Source: Nitrospirota bacterium
GTDB lineage: Bacteria; Nitrospirota; Thermodesulfovibrionia; Thermodesulfovibrionales; JdFR-85
Assembly: GCA_015492645.1 (NCBI GenBank)
Contig: WGER01000020.1
Coordinates: forward strand, 1-34,465
Reading direction: 5' to 3'
DNA: 34,465 bases
Positions 1-9,354 of this stretch are shown here, piece after piece. The notes under the pieces were generated by a model. That model was not told the origin of the DNA. It ran no database searches and saw only the letters and a program-made list of their open reading frames with translations. Numbering within the stretch: the first letter of the stretch is position 1; each line of letters opens with the position of its first letter. The translations under genes and the position numbers were made by a program.

Positions 1-633
1 GCAGACCTTATTGTTGCCTGTTATGGTCCGGCTGTTGGAGTGTTTGGTAAATACGAGCGGGTTGAAAAGGCTGATGGAACGCCAGTGGAGATACCCGAAC
101 TCCTTGAACTTGCCCGCAGGGCAGCCCGCGATGCCATAGCAGGAGAGTTTCAGGGCGATAGTGTCTCCACTCTCTACTATGTCTGGGCAAATCTTTATGG
201 TATCTCTGAGCAGGCATGGGATGATGCCAGGCTGGTGGTTCAGATTGGTGGGGAGGATGAAGACCCCTTTGAGGTTGCCCACAGGCATGGAATATTTGTG
301 GTGAATGGCTCAAAGTGTCGTCTGGCTCTGCTTAAAGACAGGGCAAACCGTCGTGGGATTGGAGTAGACCAGAATCCTCCTTTCATTGATACCCTGCACA
401 GGGCTATGCTTTACTGGAAAGAAGAAAATAGAGGAGAACTTGTGTCCTATCTGGCAGAACGAGGTCTTCTTGAGGACGGTCCATTCTGGAAACTTGCCCA
501 GGCACTTTTTGAGGTTCTGCCAAAGGATATTGAAGACTGGAAAATCATCCATGCCTTATTGATCGAAAGAGAAACCCTCAAGGCTGAGGGCAAGAAAAGG
601 GCAGTAGTAACCGAACAGCCTGATTTATTGTAA
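1..633 (+). CDS. DUF1156-type DNA methylase, C-terminal part (5' end outside window)
   Basis: The reading frame is open from base 1 (it begins ADLIVACYGPAVGVFGKY), so the gene starts before the window; 210 codons are visible to the TAA at 631-633. The segment resembles the C-terminal region of large adenine-specific DNA methylases with an N-terminal DUF1156 domain (COG1743 type), which are usually around 900-1000 residues. The catalytic NPPY-type motif would lie upstream and cannot be seen. Support comes from context: a DUF499 ATPase follows on the same strand, and DUF1156 and DUF499 proteins are known partners in defence islands of bacteria and archaea. It would modify host DNA as the self-marking arm of such a system. 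The next gene starts 9 bp downstream, so they are probably co-transcribed. Confidence is moderate because only the tail is visible. Confidence 0.72.
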   Translation, partial: ADLIVACYGPAVGVFGKYERVEKADGTPVEIPELLELARRAARDAIAGEFQGDSVSTLYYVWANLYGISEQAWDDARLVVQIGGEDEDPFEVAHRHGIFVVNGSKCRLALLKDRANRRGIGVDQNPPFIDTLHRAMLYWKEENRGELVSYLAERGLLEDGPFWKLAQALFEVLPKDIEDWKIIHALLIERETLKAEGKKRAVVTEQPDLL

Positions 634-642
634 AATTAAAAC

Positions 643-969
643 ATGGAAACCAGGGTTAAAATAAATGATTCAATTCTGAATGGATACCTACAATGTTTAA
701 AGGAGCGGTTTGGTTCTCATTTGAGCAAAGTTATCCTTTATGGCTCCCGTGCAAGGGGGGATTTTTATGAGACTTCTGATTATGACCTGATTGTCATACT
801 TGATGAGGTTACAAAAGAAACCTATGACATCCTGGATGAGATATCAGGGGAATTTCTCTATAAATATGGAGTTATTTTGTCGGCCATTGCAGTTACAGAT
901 AAAGAGTTTAAAGAGCAGATATACGATCCTCTGCTTATGAATATCAAAAAAGAAGGAATAACATTGTGA
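643..969 (+). CDS. MNT-family nucleotidyltransferase, no HEPN partner adjacent
   Basis: A 108-residue protein of the minimal nucleotidyltransferase (MNT) fold. The signature GSRARGDFYETSDYD, about residues 31-45, is an exact GSx10DxD match with both metal-binding aspartates present. Such proteins usually transfer AMP or another nucleotide to a partner, classically neutralising a HEPN RNase toxin in MntA/HepT pairs. No HEPN gene (short helical protein with Rx4-6H) adjoins it; neighbours are a DUF1156 methylase 9 bp upstream and a DUF499 ATPase 20 bp downstream. It may therefore modify a component of that defence module, which is inference. No clear Shine-Dalgarno sequence precedes the ATG, so translation may depend on read-through from the upstream gene. 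The C-terminal part is short but intact, so it does not look truncated. Confidence 0.85.
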   Translation: METRVKINDSILNGYLQCLKERFGSHLSKVILYGSRARGDFYETSDYDLIVILDEVTKETYDILDEISGEFLYKYGVILSAIAVTDKEFKEQIYDPLLMNIKKEGITL

Positions 970-989
970 GTGATTTAAGGGAGGGATAG

Positions 990-3791
990 ATGTCTCAACT
1001 CAAACCCTGGTATGCTGTTGCTATTCCTCATGAAGACATAAGGAAAGGAAGACTTGAGGAGTCTGTTTTTGCTGCCAATCTATGGGCGGTGGTTCAGGGC
1101 ACAGCACCTGAAATCTACCTTGACCCTGTAGAGTTTTATCATAAAACCTTCATGACCGTTGGTCTCAGAAATATCCTTTTAAAAGTTGCGAAGGCGCTAA
1201 AAGGAGATGCAGATGCGGGCGATAGGATTATCAGCCTTCAGACCACTTTTGGAGGAGGTAAGACCCATACACTAATTGCATTGTGGCATATGGCTAAGAA
1301 CTTATCAAAAATTTTAGGTTCAGACAATTTAGTAGAGATAAAAAATCTTCTTGAAGGACATGTTCCGGACAAGCCGATTAATGTAGCGGTCTTTACAAAT
1401 CATACATGCGATGCCACACAGGGTCGTCAAACACCCGATGGTGTTCATACCAGGACATTATGGGGAGAGATTGCCCTTCAATTGGGAGGCAGAGAACTTT
1501 ATGAGAAGGTCCGTATTAATGATGAGACCCAGAGAGTGCCTCAGGGTATATTTCTGGATATCTTAAGTGAGACATCTCCCTGCCTGATTCTTCTTGATGA
1601 GATCGCAGACTACTGCGTGGGAGCAGCAGCAGTGCCTGTTGGAGATACTACACTTGCAGACCAGACCATATCTTTTATTCAACAACTGGAGGAGGCAGTG
1701 GCTCAGGTGCCAGGAGCCGTGGTTGTTGCGACACTGCCCGCAAGTCGTTTAGAAGTGGCACAGAGTGAGAAAGGTCAGGAACTTTTTAGTGCACTGGAAA
1801 GGCGATTTCATAGGTTAGGGGCTGACATAAAGCCAGTTGGAGATGATGAAATATATGAGATAGTGCGAGCACGGCTTTTTGAATCTATTAACACAACTGA
1901 TGAACCAGATTATCCAGATAAGGTTGCCAAGGTGTATCAGGGCATGTATGCATCTCATGCTGGTGAGGTCCCACCAGAGGCTTCAAAAACTGCATATCGT
2001 GAGCAGATTAGAAGGGCTTTCCCCTTTCATCCCCTTGTGATAGATGCATTATATACTCGATGGGGTAGTCATCCAGATTTTCAGAGAACAAGAGGTGTTT
2101 TAAGGCTTCTTGCAAGCATAGTGGGTGATCTATGGTCACGCCGGGAAGGAAACACTCAGACACAGCACTTAATCCAGCCCTGTCATATAAGATGGTCTAT
2201 AGATGCACTCCATGCAGCCCTTACGAGGTTGTGGGGACCTGCTTATGAGGCTGTTGTGGCAGGTGATGTGCTTGGTGAAAGGTCAAATGCAGGGATAATT
2301 GATGAAGAAAGAGGCGGGGATTATCGCCGTGAGAAGATAGCTCAGGGACTGGCTTCCGCAATATTATTGGGTTCTTTTGGAGGCAAAGGACACCGTGTTG
2401 GGTTTAGTGCCAAAGAATTGAAACTTGCCACTGCTCGCTATGGGCTTAACTGGAATTATACTGATGGTGCCTTGCTTGAACTTGACAATCGTTGTTTTTA
2501 TTTACACTCAACTTCAGCAGCAGGACTGGGAAAGAGATACTGGTTTAGCACTAAACCGAGATTGACTAAATTGCTTGTGCAGTACAGACAACAGATTGGG
2601 GATGAGACATTTGATGATGAAATATTAGAAACATTAAGGATGCAAGTTCAGAAAGGAGCCACAGGACAGGCAACATGGCGGATAATTGTCAACCCAGAAA
2701 TAGATTTGCCTGAACAGAAGAGTCTGACCCTGCTGATACTTCATCCTTCACTTACATGGACTGAAAACGGTGGAGGAAAGGATGAGATAAAACGGATGAT
2801 TTTTCAGTTAAGTGAGCGTTGTGGGGCAAAAGATAGAATTTACAGGAATACTCTCCTTTTTCTGGTAACCAATCCAAGAGGATTGACAAAACTATACAAT
2901 GCATACAGGGAACGTGCAGCTCTGAGAGGAATTAAATCAGATTATTGGGACCAACTTGATGCTGATGACAGGGAGGAACTCAGCAAACGGCTTGAATCTG
3001 CTGAAAGGGCATCTGTTGAAGCACTTGGACCTGCTTATACAGTAGTCTGTCGCGTTTATGGTCATGAAATAGAGACATGTATTCTTCAAGATGCAAGAAC
3101 AAACTTTCAAGAACATCTTGATTACATCTGGAATACGCTTATTGAAGAAGAGGAGTGGATACTACGTCGCATTGGTTCAGTTATGTTACAGAAAGCAGGG
3201 CTTATTCCTGAAGAAGGGGGTATCAGGATAAGGGATGCTATAGATGCCTTTCTCCGATTTACAGACAAACCAATGATTGCCTCAAAAGAGGCTATAACTT
3301 CAGGACTTGAAATGGGATGTAGAGATGGAATCGTTGGCATTGGGCGTGGAACGAGTCTATCCAATCTAATGGCTCGTTACTGTAATGAGCATGTGTCAAT
3401 TGACCCTAATGAAGAAGGGCTATGGATTATTCCACCTTTTAAAGTTGAAAAGAGAGAGGAATCTGTAGCAGAAGGTGATACCTCATCTGTTGTTAAAGAA
3501 ATTTCAGATAAAGTCCAAATAGATAAGGGGATATCTGCAGAACCTTTAAAGACTAAAGGGACAGTAAGACGATTCAAAATTAAGGGTGCTGTCCCAGTTG
3601 AAAGTTACCCTGAACTTTTCCGTTGTTTTGTAAGTCCAGCAGTTCGTATGAATCTTAAAAAACTCCATCTTGGCATAGAGTTTGAGATGGAAGTTGGTGA
3701 AGGCAATGAACTTGACCCTAATGACCCAACACTGAAAGCAATGAAAGAAGCCGCTTCACAACTGGGGTTGGATTTTGAGATAGAGGAATAG
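990..3791 (+). CDS. DUF499 AAA+ family ATP-binding protein
   Basis: A 933-residue protein matching DUF499 ATPases (COG1483 type). A P-loop TTFGGGKTH is at residues 85-93 and a Walker B strand CLILLDEIADY near 198-208. The N-terminal stretch (PWYAVAIPHEDIRKG, then FAANLW) is also typical of the family, whose members are about 900-1100 residues, so this one is full length. A strong ribosome-binding site (AAGGGAGGG, 977-985) sits 4 nt before the ATG. DUF499 proteins are repeatedly found beside DUF1156 methylases and helicases in defence islands; their mechanism is not established, but they are assumed to couple ATP hydrolysis to DNA sensing or restriction. The C-terminal region around residues 830-870 is lysine/glutamate rich and looks like a linker before a final small domain. 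Its place directly after the methylase and MNT genes supports one operon. Confidence 0.88.
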   Translation: MSQLKPWYAVAIPHEDIRKGRLEESVFAANLWAVVQGTAPEIYLDPVEFYHKTFMTVGLRNILLKVAKALKGDADAGDRIISLQTTFGGGKTHTLIALWHMAKNLSKILGSDNLVEIKNLLEGHVPDKPINVAVFTNHTCDATQGRQTPDGVHTRTLWGEIALQLGGRELYEKVRINDETQRVPQGIFLDILSETSPCLILLDEIADYCVGAAAVPVGDTTLADQTISFIQQLEEAVAQVPGAVVVATLPASRLEVAQSEKGQELFSALERRFHRLGADIKPVGDDEIYEIVRARLFESINTTDEPDYPDKVAKVYQGMYASHAGEVPPEASKTAYREQIRRAFPFHPLVIDALYTRWGSHPDFQRTRGVLRLLASIVGDLWSRREGNTQTQHLIQPCHIRWSIDALHAALTRLWGPAYEAVVAGDVLGERSNAGIIDEERGGDYRREKIAQGLASAILLGSFGGKGHRVGFSAKELKLATARYGLNWNYTDGALLELDNRCFYLHSTSAAGLGKRYWFSTKPRLTKLLVQYRQQIGDETFDDEILETLRMQVQKGATGQATWRIIVNPEIDLPEQKSLTLLILHPSLTWTENGGGKDEIKRMIFQLSERCGAKDRIYRNTLLFLVTNPRGLTKLYNAYRERAALRGIKSDYWDQLDADDREELSKRLESAERASVEALGPAYTVVCRVYGHEIETCILQDARTNFQEHLDYIWNTLIEEEEWILRRIGSVMLQKAGLIPEEGGIRIRDAIDAFLRFTDKPMIASKEAITSGLEMGCRDGIVGIGRGTSLSNLMARYCNEHVSIDPNEEGLWIIPPFKVEKREESVAEGDTSSVVKEISDKVQIDKGISAEPLKTKGTVRRFKIKGAVPVESYPELFRCFVSPAVRMNLKKLHLGIEFEMEVGEGNELDPNDPTLKAMKEAASQLGLDFEIEE

Positions 3792-3840
3792 TATAGGAAT
3801 TTATTTAGTCCATAACTATTTTTATAGAGAGGAAGGGAAA

Positions 3841-4785
3841 ATGCCTTATGCAGTCTATGTCAATTTTCCAAACAATAAAGCAATAATCCATTCTGAAGAT
3901 TGCCCTATATTCAGAAACCGACGAAGTGATGAAACTCCTAATGGTTATTGGAGATGGGGATTTAATGACATTGAGTCTGCCTTAGACTTTGCCAGACAAA
4001 CAGGCAGAAAAACCATAAGGCCTTGTGCCTTCTGTCTGAGAGATTTAGACATTCAAGGTGGTGAGCAACAAGAGAATGAGCATGATGAACAGTTTGAAGA
4101 GAACCGTGAAAACCCATACGTAGACAAAATTGAGGATATTAAAAACAATGCGGAAATATATCATAAGAACTTTTATGAGCATTTCCCCTTCAGTGGACCA
4201 AGTCTTTATTTCCACAGAAGATCTTTAGAAACGAGGTCATTCTTACGCCATTCATGTGATTCTCCTGAGTTCATTCAACACCTTGAGTATGTATATGCCA
4301 CTCTTGCCTCCTGGGGCATGCACAGGATGGGAAGAGGTGGCCCTAAGATGGTTGAGTTTGAGAGTTTCAAAAAAAGCATATGTTCAGTAAAAGACCTTAT
4401 TGTGCGATTACAAGAAGTTGCTGTAGATAATATCGATGATGCAACATGGGATAGCCTTAGAAGAGTCTTCATGGGAATCAACATAATGAAAAGTGGCTCT
4501 AAACTTGTAGGACATTCAAAAGTAATGGCCCAGATGATTCCCAATCTGGTTCCTCCAATTGATAGAGAACATACCTTGAGATATTTAAGAGGTAATACCG
4601 CAGTCCCTTACAGCCCTGAGAGCCAATGGAGAATGATGAAAGAGATAATTTCCTTGTTTTACATTCCATTACTTCAGGATCATGATTTTGTGGAAATGCT
4701 CATTCATTGGAGAGATGACCAGCAGTATCCATGGGATACATCAGAATTCAAAATAATTGACAACCTCATAATTGGAGCCACCTGA
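3841..4785 (+). CDS. Uncharacterised protein with Ada-like His/Cys N-terminus, last gene of defence operon
   Basis: I do not recognise a named family for this 314-residue protein. The N-terminal 75 residues carry a pattern like an Ada-type zinc site: HSEDCP near residues 17-22 and RPCAFC near 60-65, that is H-x3-C followed by C-x2-C. An acidic linker rich in Glu/Gln (about 77-100) follows. The remainder is an apparently helical domain of about 210 residues with the conserved-looking segments YATLASWGMHRMG and SKVMAQMIPNLVPPIDREHT. There is no signal peptide or membrane segment. A purine-rich ribosome-binding site (GAGAGGAAGGG) precedes the ATG. It lies 49 bp after the DUF499 gene on the same strand and is the last gene before the composition shift, so it is probably the terminal member of the defence operon. 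Function is unknown; nucleic-acid binding through the zinc site is a guess. Confidence 0.75.
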   Translation: MPYAVYVNFPNNKAIIHSEDCPIFRNRRSDETPNGYWRWGFNDIESALDFARQTGRKTIRPCAFCLRDLDIQGGEQQENEHDEQFEENRENPYVDKIEDIKNNAEIYHKNFYEHFPFSGPSLYFHRRSLETRSFLRHSCDSPEFIQHLEYVYATLASWGMHRMGRGGPKMVEFESFKKSICSVKDLIVRLQEVAVDNIDDATWDSLRRVFMGINIMKSGSKLVGHSKVMAQMIPNLVPPIDREHTLRYLRGNTAVPYSPESQWRMMKEIISLFYIPLLQDHDFVEMLIHWRDDQQYPWDTSEFKIIDNLIIGAT

Positions 4786-5028: not shown

Positions 5029-5289
5029 ATGTCCAGACAGAGTACAGGAAAAAAGGGCAGGGTTGTCCTTTCTGTGAGGGTGCAGCCGCGGGCCTCACGG
5101 AATGAGGTATTACAATGCGGGGATGGGTCCCTGAAGGTGAGGGTGACAGCACCAGCAGAGGGTGGAAGGGCGAACAGGATGCTCCTGGAAGTCCTTGCCG
5201 AGCATTTTGGGGTGAGGCGATCCTGTGTCAGGATAATCAGTGGTGAGACCTCAAGGAACAAGAAGATAGAGATAGATGAGGGCAGATGA
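5029..5289 (+). CDS. yggU: DUF167 / YggU family protein
   Basis: An 86-residue protein of the DUF167 (YggU) family. The typical core is present: VRVQPRASRNEV near residues 17-28, KVRVTAPAEGGRAN near 36-49, then a hydrophobic helix LLEVLAEHFGV and the closing IISGETSRNK. The biochemical role of this widespread small family is not established. The length is normal (usually 80-110). No good Shine-Dalgarno lies before the ATG, fitting an ancestral coupling to an upstream gene now lost (see the remnant ending 6 bp before). Its end overlaps the ribD start by 14 bp, so yggU, ribD and the helicase gene are transcribed and probably translated together. Confidence 0.88.
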   Translation: MSRQSTGKKGRVVLSVRVQPRASRNEVLQCGDGSLKVRVTAPAEGGRANRMLLEVLAEHFGVRRSCVRIISGETSRNKKIEIDEGR

Positions 5290-6355
5290 TACTGTATACA
5301 TAAAGAGGGTGCTGAGGCTTGCCAGGAGGGCAGAGGGGATGACGAGTCCCAACCCGATGGTGGGTGCCCTTCTGGTGAAGGATGGAGATGTCCTTGCTGA
5401 GGACTTTCACAGGAGGGCAGGGACACCCCATGCAGAGGCCCTGGTGCTCCGGAAGGCGGGTAAAAGGGCAGAGGGTGCCACCCTTTATGTGAATCTCGAG
5501 CCCTGTTGTCATACAGAGAAGCGGACCCCGCCATGCACAGAGGCGATAATAAGGGCGGGTGTGAAGAGGGTGGTGGCCTCCATGATTGATCCAAATCCGA
5601 AGGTCTCGGGCAGGGGGATTGAGATGCTCCGGAATGCAGGCATAGAGGTTGATGTGGGTATCTGTGAGGCGGAGGCGAGGAGGCTGAACGAGGCGTATGA
5701 GAAGTACATCACAACAGGGCTCCCCTTTGTCACCCTCAAGGTGGCCATGAGCCTGGATGGAAAGGTGGCGCTTCCCACAGGGGAGTCGAAATGGATAACC
5801 TCTGAGAAGTCAAGGAGGATGGTCCAGAGAATGAGGGCAGCCCATGACTGTATACTGACCGGCATTGGTACTGTCAGGGCAGATGATCCATCCCTCACGG
5901 TGAGGCTCAGGGCAGGGAGGTCACCCACCAGGGTGGTGGTGGACCCCCACCTGGATATTGATCCCGGGGCAAAGATACTGATGACACCTCCCGATACCAT
6001 CCTGGTGACCGAAGTGACAGGGGGAGAGAAGATGGAGAAACTTCTCAACAGAGGCATAGAGATCATGACCTATAAGGATGGACTCGACTTCCAGTGGCTC
6101 ATGAGGAGACTTGGTGAAAAGGGGTTTGTCTCTGTGATGGTGGAGGCCGGCTCTACACTGCCATCTTATATGTTGAGGGCTGGGGTGGTAGATAAGGTGG
6201 TCTTCTTTGTGGCACCAAAGATTCTGGGTGGTAGAGATTCATTCCCTGCCATTGGAGGCCCATCCTGTGGGAGGCTGAAGGAGGCATATCAACTAAAGGA
6301 TCTGAAGGTGAAAAGGGTAGGAGAAGACCTGATGATAGAAGGTTATCTCAGATGA
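5276..6355 (+). CDS. ribD: Bifunctional riboflavin biosynthesis protein RibD (deaminase/reductase)
   Basis: A 359-residue protein carrying both RibD activities: deamination of the pyrimidine from GTP cyclohydrolase II, then NADPH reduction of the ribose side chain, two early steps of riboflavin synthesis. The N-terminal deaminase half has SPNPMVG (24-30), the zinc/catalytic HAE (52-54) and PCCHTEKRTPPC (76-87). The C-terminal reductase half begins around 147 (LPFVTLKVAMSLDGKVA) and contains the substrate loop TGIGTVRADDPSLTVR and the late motif VEAGSTLPS. Length is normal for the fused enzyme. The ATG overlaps yggU by 14 bp and the stop overlaps the next gene as ATGA, indicating translational coupling. 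No FMN riboswitch-like leader and no ribE/ribAB genes are in the window, so the pathway is dispersed. Confidence 0.97.
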   Translation: MRADDTVYIKRVLRLARRAEGMTSPNPMVGALLVKDGDVLAEDFHRRAGTPHAEALVLRKAGKRAEGATLYVNLEPCCHTEKRTPPCTEAIIRAGVKRVVASMIDPNPKVSGRGIEMLRNAGIEVDVGICEAEARRLNEAYEKYITTGLPFVTLKVAMSLDGKVALPTGESKWITSEKSRRMVQRMRAAHDCILTGIGTVRADDPSLTVRLRAGRSPTRVVVDPHLDIDPGAKILMTPPDTILVTEVTGGEKMEKLLNRGIEIMTYKDGLDFQWLMRRLGEKGFVSVMVEAGSTLPSYMLRAGVVDKVVFFVAPKILGGRDSFPAIGGPSCGRLKEAYQLKDLKVKRVGEDLMIEGYLR

Positions 6356-8283
6356 GGGAATTCTTCCAGCCAGGAGGCCTCCTTTCCGATACACTCACAA
6401 CCTTTGAATACAGACCCTGCCAGTTGGAGATGGCAGAGGCGGTCTCCAGGGCCCTTGGTGAGGGCAGGGAGATATTGATAGAGGCACCGACCGGTGTGGG
6501 CAAGAGCCTCGCCTATCTCATACCACTTGCGGACCTCATCAACAAAGGCGAGATTGAGAGGGCCGTTGTATCCACCTACACCAAAACACTGCAGAGACAA
6601 CTGATAGAGAGGGATATACCGATTGTTATGGAGAGGTTCTTCCCCCATCTCAGATACTCCGTCTGCTTCGGCAGCGAGAACTACCTCTGTCTGAGGAGAT
6701 TCAACAATGCCTTCAGGGAGGGATTATTTGAAGATTTACAGAACCAGCAGGTGAGTGCCCTCAGGAAGTGGGTTGAATTGACCGAAGAGGGGCTTTATAT
6801 GGAGGTGATGCCACCCTCAGGGTTGTGGATTAGGGTCTGTAGAGAGACAGACCTGTGTCACGGACGGGAATGTGCATATTTTCAGGATTGTTTTTACCAG
6901 AAGGCGAGGCAGAACCACCGGAGGTCACAACTTCTCGTGGTGAACCATCACCTGTTTTTTGCAAACATGGCATCGGGATGGAATGTCCTGCCCGGATTCA
7001 GCCATGTGGTCTTTGATGAGGCCCATGAACTGGAGAGGGTGGCTACAGAGTACCTCGGAGCAGAGGTCTCCAATACAAGACTGAAGTACCTTCTCGACGG
7101 TCTGCTGAACAAGAGGGGCAGGGGTTTAATAAGGAGGCTGCACCTGGAGGGCTTGGATGTCAGAAGGTTGGAAGGCACAATTGGTCGAATCAGGGCCCAG
7201 GGTGAGGAGTTCTTCAACAGAGTTGCCCACTTCCTTGGTCAGGAGAGATCAAGGAGGCTTTCTGCCGATTCACCCTTTGTTGACAACCTATCGGAGCACC
7301 TGGACTATCTGGCAGAGGAGTTGAGAGGACTGAGCCTGATTGCAGAGACAGAGGAACTATCCAAGGACCTGAAGGTATTTTCACAGAGGTGTCGGCAGTA
7401 TATAGAGACCCTTGATCTGATCCTCAAGCAGGGTCTTGAGGGTTACCTCTACTGGGCGGATCGGGAGGGCAGGAGGTTGAGACTTGTAGCCACCCCACTT
7501 GAGCCTGCCGATATACTGAGGAGTCACCTGTTTAAACTCATGGATGCCTCGGTAATCACATCAGCAACCCTCACAGTAGGCGGCTCCTTTGAATATGTCA
7601 AGAGGTCACTGGGGCTCGAAGATGCCGAGACCCTCCTCATAGAGAGCCCCTTTGACTTTCTACACAACGCCCTTCTTTATATCTGTCCTGATATGCCTGA
7701 TCCTGAATCTCCAGTGTATATCGAGAGGGTCACAGAAGAGATCGAGAGGATCCTTGAAGTTTCAAGGGGCAGGACCCTTGTGCTTTACACCAGTTATAGC
7801 CTTCTCAATGATGTGGCATCACGGATCCGGTCCTCTCACCTCACCATATTGAAGCAGGGAGATGAGGACAACTACAATCTGATCATGAGATTCAGGAGAA
7901 CAGATAACGCTGTCCTTTTAGGTACGTACTCCTTCTGGCAGGGGGTTGACATCCCTGGTGATGCCCTGCAGTGTGTGGTGATCACAAAGTTGCCCTTTCC
8001 TGTGCCGACAGAACCCCTGATTGAGGCGAGGATGGAACTCGCCGCGGAAAGGGGACTTGATCCCTTTTATGAAGTCCAGTTGCCCATGGCTGTGATAACC
8101 TTTCGTCAGGGTTTTGGGAGACTGATCAGGAGGGCAACTGACAGGGGCATTGTGGCAGTCCTTGACAGCAGGATCCTCAGAAGGGCGTACGGGAGATCAT
8201 TTCTCAGATCTCTACCTGAGATTCAGATGACCACTGATATAGAGAGGGTGAGGTCCTTTTTCAGATCCGATGTATTGATTTAA
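6352..8283 (+). CDS. dinG: DinG/XPD-like iron-sulfur DNA helicase
   Basis: A 643-residue superfamily 2 helicase of the DinG/YoaA group, 5'-3' ATP-dependent DNA unwinding enzymes for repair and replication-block removal. Visible motifs: a Q-motif-like RPCQLEM (21-27), Walker A EAPTGVGKS (44-52), the DEAH box in VVFDEAHELE (219-228), SATLT in the second half, and motif VI QGFGRLIRR near the C-terminus. A cysteine cluster between motifs Ia and II (C113, C163, C169, C174, C180) fits the [4Fe-4S] domain of XPD-like helicases, which needs four cysteines. There is no N-terminal exonuclease domain, unlike the Gram-positive form. It overlaps ribD by 4 bp (ATGA), so it shares that transcript. Confidence 0.94.
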   Translation: MREFFQPGGLLSDTLTTFEYRPCQLEMAEAVSRALGEGREILIEAPTGVGKSLAYLIPLADLINKGEIERAVVSTYTKTLQRQLIERDIPIVMERFFPHLRYSVCFGSENYLCLRRFNNAFREGLFEDLQNQQVSALRKWVELTEEGLYMEVMPPSGLWIRVCRETDLCHGRECAYFQDCFYQKARQNHRRSQLLVVNHHLFFANMASGWNVLPGFSHVVFDEAHELERVATEYLGAEVSNTRLKYLLDGLLNKRGRGLIRRLHLEGLDVRRLEGTIGRIRAQGEEFFNRVAHFLGQERSRRLSADSPFVDNLSEHLDYLAEELRGLSLIAETEELSKDLKVFSQRCRQYIETLDLILKQGLEGYLYWADREGRRLRLVATPLEPADILRSHLFKLMDASVITSATLTVGGSFEYVKRSLGLEDAETLLIESPFDFLHNALLYICPDMPDPESPVYIERVTEEIERILEVSRGRTLVLYTSYSLLNDVASRIRSSHLTILKQGDEDNYNLIMRFRRTDNAVLLGTYSFWQGVDIPGDALQCVVITKLPFPVPTEPLIEARMELAAERGLDPFYEVQLPMAVITFRQGFGRLIRRATDRGIVAVLDSRILRRAYGRSFLRSLPEIQMTTDIERVRSFFRSDVLI

Positions 8284-8298
8284 GGAGGTGTAGATACT

Positions 8299-9354
8299 AT
8301 GGTTAAGGCCGTTGAATGGGTAAACGGGAAGGTGAGGCTACTTGATCAGAGTAAACTCCCCCATGAGGTCTCCTTTATCGATTGTGAGGACTTTGTGATG
8401 GTGGCAGATGCTATAAGGAGCCTCAAGATAAGAGGTGCACCGGCAATCGGGATAGCCTCTGCAATGGGGCTCGCCCTGGCGGCCCAGCAGACAGAGGTGA
8501 AGGGGGTTGATGAACTTAAGGGGAGGCTTGAGGAGGTGGCCCGGGTGTTTCTATCCACCCGTCCCACAGCCGTCAATATCCAATGGGCGATGCAGAGGAT
8601 GCTCAGGGTTGTAGAGGACGGTAAAGACCTCTCTGTGGATGACCTGAAACAGAGACTGATTGAGGAGGCGAAGGCGATACTTGAGGAGGATATCGAGGTG
8701 AACAGGGCGATAGGTATCTGGGGTGCCAGTTTTATAAGGGATGGGGACACCGTGCTCACCCACTGTAATGCAGGCTCACTTGCCACAGGTGGTTATGGTA
8801 CTGCAACGGCCCCTATACTGGTTGCAAAGGAACAGGGCAAAAACGTCCGCGTCATTGCCACAGAGACACGGCCAGTGCTTCAGGGTGCAAGGCTTACCAC
8901 ATGGGAACTCATGCAGGCAGGTGTTGATGTGACCCTTATAACCGATAACTCTGCAGGTGCGGTAATGAGGAGAGGACTCGTTGATCTCTGTATCGTTGGT
9001 ACAGACAGGACGGTTCTCAACGGTGATGTGGCAAACAAGATAGGCACCTATACTCTTGCTGTGCTTGCCAGGGAGAATGGTATACCCTTCTACGTGGCGG
9101 CCCCGCTGAGTAGTATCGACCCCACCATCGAATCAGGGGAGTTGATCCCTATAGAGGAGAGACCGGCTGAGGAGGTGACCACAATCAGGGGGGTCAGGAT
9201 AGCCCCTGAAGGGGTGAAGGTCCTTAACATGGCCTTTGATGTCACCCCTGCCAGATACATCACCGCCATAATTACAGAAAAGGGTGCCTTCAGACCTCGA
9301 GACATCAGGAAACTCTTTTTGGAAGGATTGAACATCTCAGAGGTGAGGCTTTGA
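8299..9354 (+). CDS. mtnA: S-methyl-5-thioribose-1-phosphate isomerase
   Basis: A 351-residue MtnA enzyme, which converts 5-methylthioribose-1-phosphate to 5-methylthioribulose-1-phosphate in methionine salvage. Family motifs are intact: RGAPAIGIA (45-53), STRPTAVNIQWA (86-97), the catalytic-cysteine stretch THCNAGSLATGGYGTA (C156), TRPVLQGARLT, and GTDR with D236 followed by NGDVANKIGT. Length and spacing are those of the family, which is related to eIF-2B alpha. A strong AAGGAGGTG ribosome-binding site (8283-8291) lies 7 nt before the ATG, only 15 bp after the helicase stop, so it is likely the last gene of the yggU-ribD-helicase run. Other salvage genes (mtnP, mtnB) are not in the window. 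Confidence 0.97.
   Translation: MVKAVEWVNGKVRLLDQSKLPHEVSFIDCEDFVMVADAIRSLKIRGAPAIGIASAMGLALAAQQTEVKGVDELKGRLEEVARVFLSTRPTAVNIQWAMQRMLRVVEDGKDLSVDDLKQRLIEEAKAILEEDIEVNRAIGIWGASFIRDGDTVLTHCNAGSLATGGYGTATAPILVAKEQGKNVRVIATETRPVLQGARLTTWELMQAGVDVTLITDNSAGAVMRRGLVDLCIVGTDRTVLNGDVANKIGTYTLAVLARENGIPFYVAAPLSSIDPTIESGELIPIEERPAEEVTTIRGVRIAPEGVKVLNMAFDVTPARYITAIITEKGAFRPRDIRKLFLEGLNISEVRL

Follow-up and report, generated by a model that had tools for sequence, protein, structure and literature searches.

A methylase fragment, a lone minimal nucleotidyltransferase (MNT), a DUF499 ATPase and an unrecognised protein stand close together on one strand at the start of the 34,465-nucleotide stretch of Nitrospirota DNA that we analysed (the window), and they raise the question of whether they form a defence system of an undescribed kind or an incomplete view of a known one. 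The original prediction favoured the former, with nucleotide transfer by the MNT controlling the ATPase or the methylase. The four frames that it listed are confirmed, and so are the gaps between them (9, 20 and 49 bp; Table 1). Our comparisons lead to another reading, to which we give a probability of about 70%: the genes would belong to a cut Hma antiphage operon, of the Type-1 DUF499-centred BREX-related class, in the order hmaA - gap - hmaB - MNT - hmaC - P4, with a restriction-modification-like core, the MNT as cargo without its toxin, and the unrecognised protein, here called P4, as an accessory.

Table 1. Genes of the locus and its chromosomal flank, with positions in the window
Feature	Position	Strand	Evidence and remarks
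hmaB, C-terminal part (DUF1156-family N6-adenine methylase)	1..633	+	PADLOC HmaB 2.8e-7; open at the 5' contig edge
Lone minimal nucleotidyltransferase (MNT, MntA-like, PDC-S09), 108 aa	643..969	+	NTP_transf_2 7e-11; PDC-S09 8.8e-22
hmaC, DUF499 AAA+ ATPase, 933 aa	990..3791	+	HmaC 1e-130; DUF499 6e-28
P4 (unnamed protein), 314 aa: N-terminal Zn-motif domain and all-helical domain	3841..4785	+	No family match; relatives in 68 loci
Chromosomal flank outside the system: DUF167-like, RibD-like, DinG-like helicase and MtnA-like genes	5029..9354	+	Open reading frames; names by reading

The first base of the window is also the first base of contig C20 in a 2.43-Mb, 91-contig assembly, so the methylase was truncated by the assembly and not by the choice of window; C20 holds no sequence 5' of the hmaB fragment. 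About 210 C-terminal amino acids of HmaB are present, with a match to positions 765-909 of the 967 in the PADLOC profile, and the same region in relatives is the end of the methylase that adjoins hmaC. The predicted methylase family is right, although the DUF1156 domain itself does not lie in the window: together with the catalytic core it falls in the assembly gap. C20 carries the sole HmaB and the sole HmaC matches of the genome, and a genome search recovered no further hmaB sequence elsewhere in the assembly.

The helicase, whose slot was thought to have been taken by other genes, is present in the genome. The end of contig C83 carries the genome's only full-length HmaA match (1166 aa, 9e-202), which has SNF2, Helicase_C and NOV_C domains, points outward and lies 56 bp from the 3' contig end. 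There, a small frame with the start MDRDNLKELHFIAHI shares sequence with the stop codon of hmaA and continues to the contig end (L068:10361-10427); it has no relative among the fetched loci. The hmaA gene at the end of C83 and the hmaB-hmaC genes at the start of C20 thus occupy two contig ends in matching orientation. Most likely this is an ordinary Hma (Type-1 "BR") system split by an assembly gap inside hmaB, and the simplest reading joins C83 to C20 into one operon. The gap may hold another gene between hmaA and hmaB besides hmaB.

Joining the contigs has a cost. A same-genus genome, G001, whose contig C2 carries genes resembling a CRISPR-Cas locus by eye upstream of its DUF167-ribD block (L229:1739-9842), has the flanks of C83 and C20 73 kb apart and in opposite orientation, so that the join needs a rearrangement. 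One inversion would unite both flanks of G001; in no relative examined do they stand side by side. The block of flanking genes downstream of P4 recurs elsewhere in G001, and the flank upstream of ribD may be a gathering site for defence genes.

The ATPase was correctly assigned to DUF499, and it carries the Walker A motif GGGKT at residue 88 and the Walker B motif LILLDE at residue 199. It starts at the ATPase domain, without an N-terminal HEPN fusion. A length of about 1110 aa is common among other HmaC proteins and would agree with an N-terminal HEPN (Swt1) fusion; such a fusion has been known since 2013 (PMC3710099), and plasmid-borne HmaC relatives are annotated as Swt1 family HEPN. The plasmid search with HmaC returned distant DUF499 proteins only, at about 34% identity or less, and a scan of genome_contigs gave no confirmed match. 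Within the phylum, too, the window HmaC is divergent, with a best identity of about 35% to the HmaC proteins compared. It forms a long branch of unsure placement in the HmaC tree, and we therefore claim no origin for it.

We gathered HmaC loci from relatives and from the phylum, in which 44 of 396 genomes have HmaC at E ≤ 1e-20, and read the genes between hmaB and hmaC. Apart from the window, 13 loci match the MNT profile in or beside the hmaB-hmaC junction. MNT genes accompanied by HEPN or DUF86 genes occur within hmaB or at the junction in L044, L045, L047, L048, L050, L052, L194, L195, L196 and L202. Four of these have MNT and HEPN between hmaB and hmaC (L045, L194, L195, L196), L048 has HEPN and MNT at the junction, L050 is a same-genus remnant with MNT and HEPN, and L202 has two MNTs with a DUF86-type partner. 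Between the two MNT genes of L202, at its degraded junction, lies a protein that looks to be of TIR type (L202:1889-2728). Elsewhere, in one genus, hmaB itself is split into N-terminal and C-terminal frames with the MNT between the halves (L044:4423-7850, L047:3948-7332, L052:4118-7482 and L192:2322-5783); a DUF86 (HepT-like) gene is present in the first three and a HepT-like frame with an internal stop in L192. In two further loci, L177 and L203, the MNT immediately precedes hmaC and no HEPN separates them; each lies at a contig edge, with the upstream side, where a HEPN might still stand, off the contig.

Unrelated genes fill the junction in other loci. L042 has a HicB-like pair there, L046 a TIR protein and L193 DUF433 with DUF5615; PD-(D/E)XK proteins occur in L191 and, by similar sequence, L186, AAA ATPases in L188 and, by similar sequence, L190, and a protein of about 320 aa without a Pfam match in L189 and L196. 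Because MNT/HEPN genes and unrelated cargo recur at this junction, the MNT of the Hma operon is one case of a general cargo habit and not a new regulatory design. The junction serves repeatedly as a docking site, both for toxin-antitoxin genes and for defence genes of other kinds, and the HEPN toxin is sometimes absent from it while the nucleotidyltransferase remains. "Hma-embedded candidates", some of them antiviral, have been found by guilt-by-embedding in a 2024 preprint cited in PMC12988326, and PDC-S09 is already among the catalogued candidates.

The MNT identification was borne out by Pfam (42.8 bits against a cut-off of 21) and by PADLOC, whose PDC-S09 model (PDLC04903) matches residues 9-108 of the 108. 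Its catalytic motif, GSRARG..SDYD, is intact, and the NCBIfam MntA model scores it at 28 bits against the 60 required. No HEPN toxin gene adjoins it, the 9 bp to hmaB and 20 bp to hmaC leaving none on either side. The HEPN matches of the genome lie on contigs C1, C3 and C35, most of them adjoining an MNT of their own. Of the seven MNT relatives that come nearest to it in the phylum, six have an adjacent HEPN-like gene, directly downstream in five as read from the sequences (L213 to L217) and by profile in L212; the closest relative, L211 (44% identity), has no HEPN beside its MNT.

These comparisons suggest that a HEPN/MNT (type VII) pair lost its toxin here and that the MNT is the antitoxin which it kept. 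Such a loss is suggested by L177 and L203, in which the MNT likewise stands directly before hmaC, and loss of the toxin first with the antitoxin kept is the economical explanation, since the reverse order would do harm. The intact motif and the tight spacing also agree with a working role of the MNT in the operon. With L211 lone as well, lone MNTs might be functional, and it is possible, from adjacency, that the MNT has gained a function toward HmaC.

A stronger form of that idea sees a separate variant in the locus: the MNT would nucleotidylate HmaC or HmaB and so keep the system inactive until infection occurs, and P4 would count as a fourth core component. The close spacing, the intact motif and the two further genomes with an MNT directly before hmaC speak for it. 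Against this, the hmaB-hmaC slot hosts many unrelated cargo genes, relatives of the MNT are normally one half of a HEPN/MNT pair, and the reaction known for MntA is that it AMPylates HepT toxins (PMC7641770). Conserved co-occurrence was the check that the original prediction proposed for itself, and the complete set of four did not turn up in the 199 relatives searched for HmaC, the 199 searched for P4, the 396 phylum genomes (searched with HmaC) or the 68 P4 loci, the search beyond the phylum covering the ten genomes of P4 loci. Since the set is in no other genome searched, the claim of an undescribed four-part system fails its own test, and the MNT part of it is usual, already catalogued junction cargo. 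The MNT and P4 families do recur in defence loci, which also tells against their being random insertions, the outcome named beforehand as evidence against the proposal; the more modest statement that each extra gene comes from a defence-linked family stands. We consider a control system of this kind improbable. Nor do we think it probable that the locus is simply decaying, with hmaB truncated, the toxin lost, the MNT and P4 as leftovers and no working defence. The assembly's want of further hmaB sequence, the partnerless MNT and a same-genus genome in which the hmaC that follows MNT and HEPN is shortened to 547 aa would all suit decay, but HmaA and HmaC are full-length and open with their motifs intact, and hmaB ends exactly at the contig edge, where an assembly gap explains it.

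P4 is the sole element here without a tie to a described family. That it is unrecognised and of Zn type agrees with what we see: no Pfam, PADLOC or NCBIfam family matches it above threshold, and residues 1-66 hold a motif, recognised by eye, of H17, C21, C62 and C65. Residues 89-314 form an all-helical C-terminal domain that belongs to an unnamed defence-associated family, not represented in Pfam or PADLOC. Weak similarity to DUF6308 (PF19827) at the C-terminal end lies far under the cut-off (13.3 against 27.3 bits), and only one of 44 P4 relatives matches DUF6308 at E ≤ 0.01. Relatives of the domain occur in 68 loci of genome_contigs, in Nitrospirae, Deltaproteobacteria, Bacteroidetes, Acidobacteria, Planctomycetes, Chloroflexi, Bacillota, Actinomycetota and archaea; the search of plasmids and phages gave no match. 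The 44 members share 14 invariant columns, including W-G-M-H-R-M-G, K141, P148 and D155 (domain numbering). AlphaFold2 predicts the domain as entirely helical with a pLDDT of 95.8 and a pTM of 0.92, and models built from 5 and from 44 sequences found no match at E ≤ 0.001 in Foldseek searches of the PDB and BFVD, nor did the P4 profile match any PDB sequence. We also considered P4 as a disguised HEPN toxin. Its RSFLRH matches the HEPN motif but does not fall in the columns that the family conserves, and neither a HEPN family nor a HEPN fold was matched; we rejected the idea. The N-terminal extension differs in some members and, by reading, looks like a helix-turn-helix (HTH) in L109 (MTFTDAVREILLSANRALTPQEIRKLIKER). 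A stand-alone 69-aa copy of the Zn-motif domain (63% identity) stands beside genes read as HicAB-like at L057:827-1036.

The genomic company of the relatives is mixed. In three type-3 BREX loci a P4 relative lies between pglXI and brxHII (L055:9034-9729, L087:9652-10389 and L089:9962-10660; L055 is the same locus as L091; the gene families were checked in L055 and assigned by similarity in the other two), and genes overlap or nearly overlap in two of the three. Another relative lies directly before hmaA (L114), others lie beside Type I restriction-modification (RM) genes (L058, L104, L128), and the remainder stand alone or beside metabolic genes. The relatives in type-3 BREX are possibly an unrecognised BREX accessory gene. 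More broadly, and tentatively, P4 would found an undescribed defence-associated family with a fold so far missing among solved structures, a domain of about 225 all-helical residues with the core GPS.YFH / WGMHRMG / SK..H..P...PPxDR.YT / K..DN, recruited by BREX type 3, Hma and Type I RM. In this proposal variable N-termini would direct it to DNA or to a complex; that the Zn motif here and the HTH-like extension in others are such variants is a similarly cautious suggestion.

P4 may instead be no Hma accessory but a defence gene that acts by itself, or a mobile gene, which landed behind hmaC by chance. Recognisable multi-gene defence operons house only a minority of the 68 relatives, many of the relatives have no same-strand neighbour or have metabolic ones, and their N-terminal extensions differ, all of which would be expected of such a gene. 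Yet P4 sits on the same strand as hmaC, 49 bp downstream, its relatives adjoin HmaA and Type I RM subunits, and in the three BREX loci they keep a fixed slot with genes that in two overlap or nearly so. Chance arrival is a serious possibility that we nevertheless hold to be somewhat short of even odds, and we continue with P4 as an accessory of the cut Hma operon.

If the operon is continuous, its core may work as family knowledge of these systems (PMC12839542) would have it, in the manner of restriction-modification. HmaB would place an N6-methyladenine mark on self DNA, the HmaC ATPase would organise recognition of unmarked DNA, and HmaA, through its SNF2 helicase and NOV_C (PD-(D/E)XK-type) domain, would cleave that DNA. 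The MNT would ride in the hmaB-hmaC slot as embedded cargo, probably an antitoxin remnant; if still active, it would adenylylate a HEPN-type target elsewhere, not HmaC. P4 would be an operon accessory whose Zn-motif and all-helical domain are of a kind recruited by several defence types, and its most likely role, which we put forward with reserve, would be that of a nucleic-acid- or complex-binding adaptor or effector.

Among known systems, the locus comes closest to Hma, defined by the HmaA helicase, HmaB methylase and HmaC ATPase (PADLOC, PMC8565338) and classified as the Type-1 DUF499-centred BREX-related (BR) system (PMC12839542). It shares the DUF499 ATPase with Walker motifs adjoining the HmaB C-terminus, and the genome contains the SNF2 helicase with its NOV_C nuclease-type domain, probably in the same operon; a helicase with NOV_C fits Type 1 under that classification. 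It differs in that its gene order is known from two pieces, that an MNT sits between hmaB and hmaC with P4 behind hmaC, and that its HmaC is divergent. Type-2 BR systems have a standalone DUF3780 and an HKD-nuclease helicase; the visible genes here include no DUF3780, and the helicase is of the NOV_C kind, with no HKD reported. The PglZ and iSTAND genes of Type-3 BR are not among the visible genes, the assembly gap lying outside view.

For the MNT, the nearest counterparts are the PDC-S09 Hma-embedded candidates, likewise a lone MNT of the same family inside an Hma locus, with no important difference seen. The type VII HEPN/MNT (HepT/MntA) systems (PMC7641770, PMC11586414) share the MNT fold and catalytic motif, but the window MNT has no adjacent HEPN toxin and falls below the threshold of the MntA model. 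An Hma/Type-1 BR system with an embedded PDC-S09 MNT is thus already known, and the fresh element is the unnamed P4 accessory. The P4 family is worth following for the constant position that it takes in some of the type-3 BREX operons, its spread over many phyla and a confidently predicted fold that resembles nothing solved.
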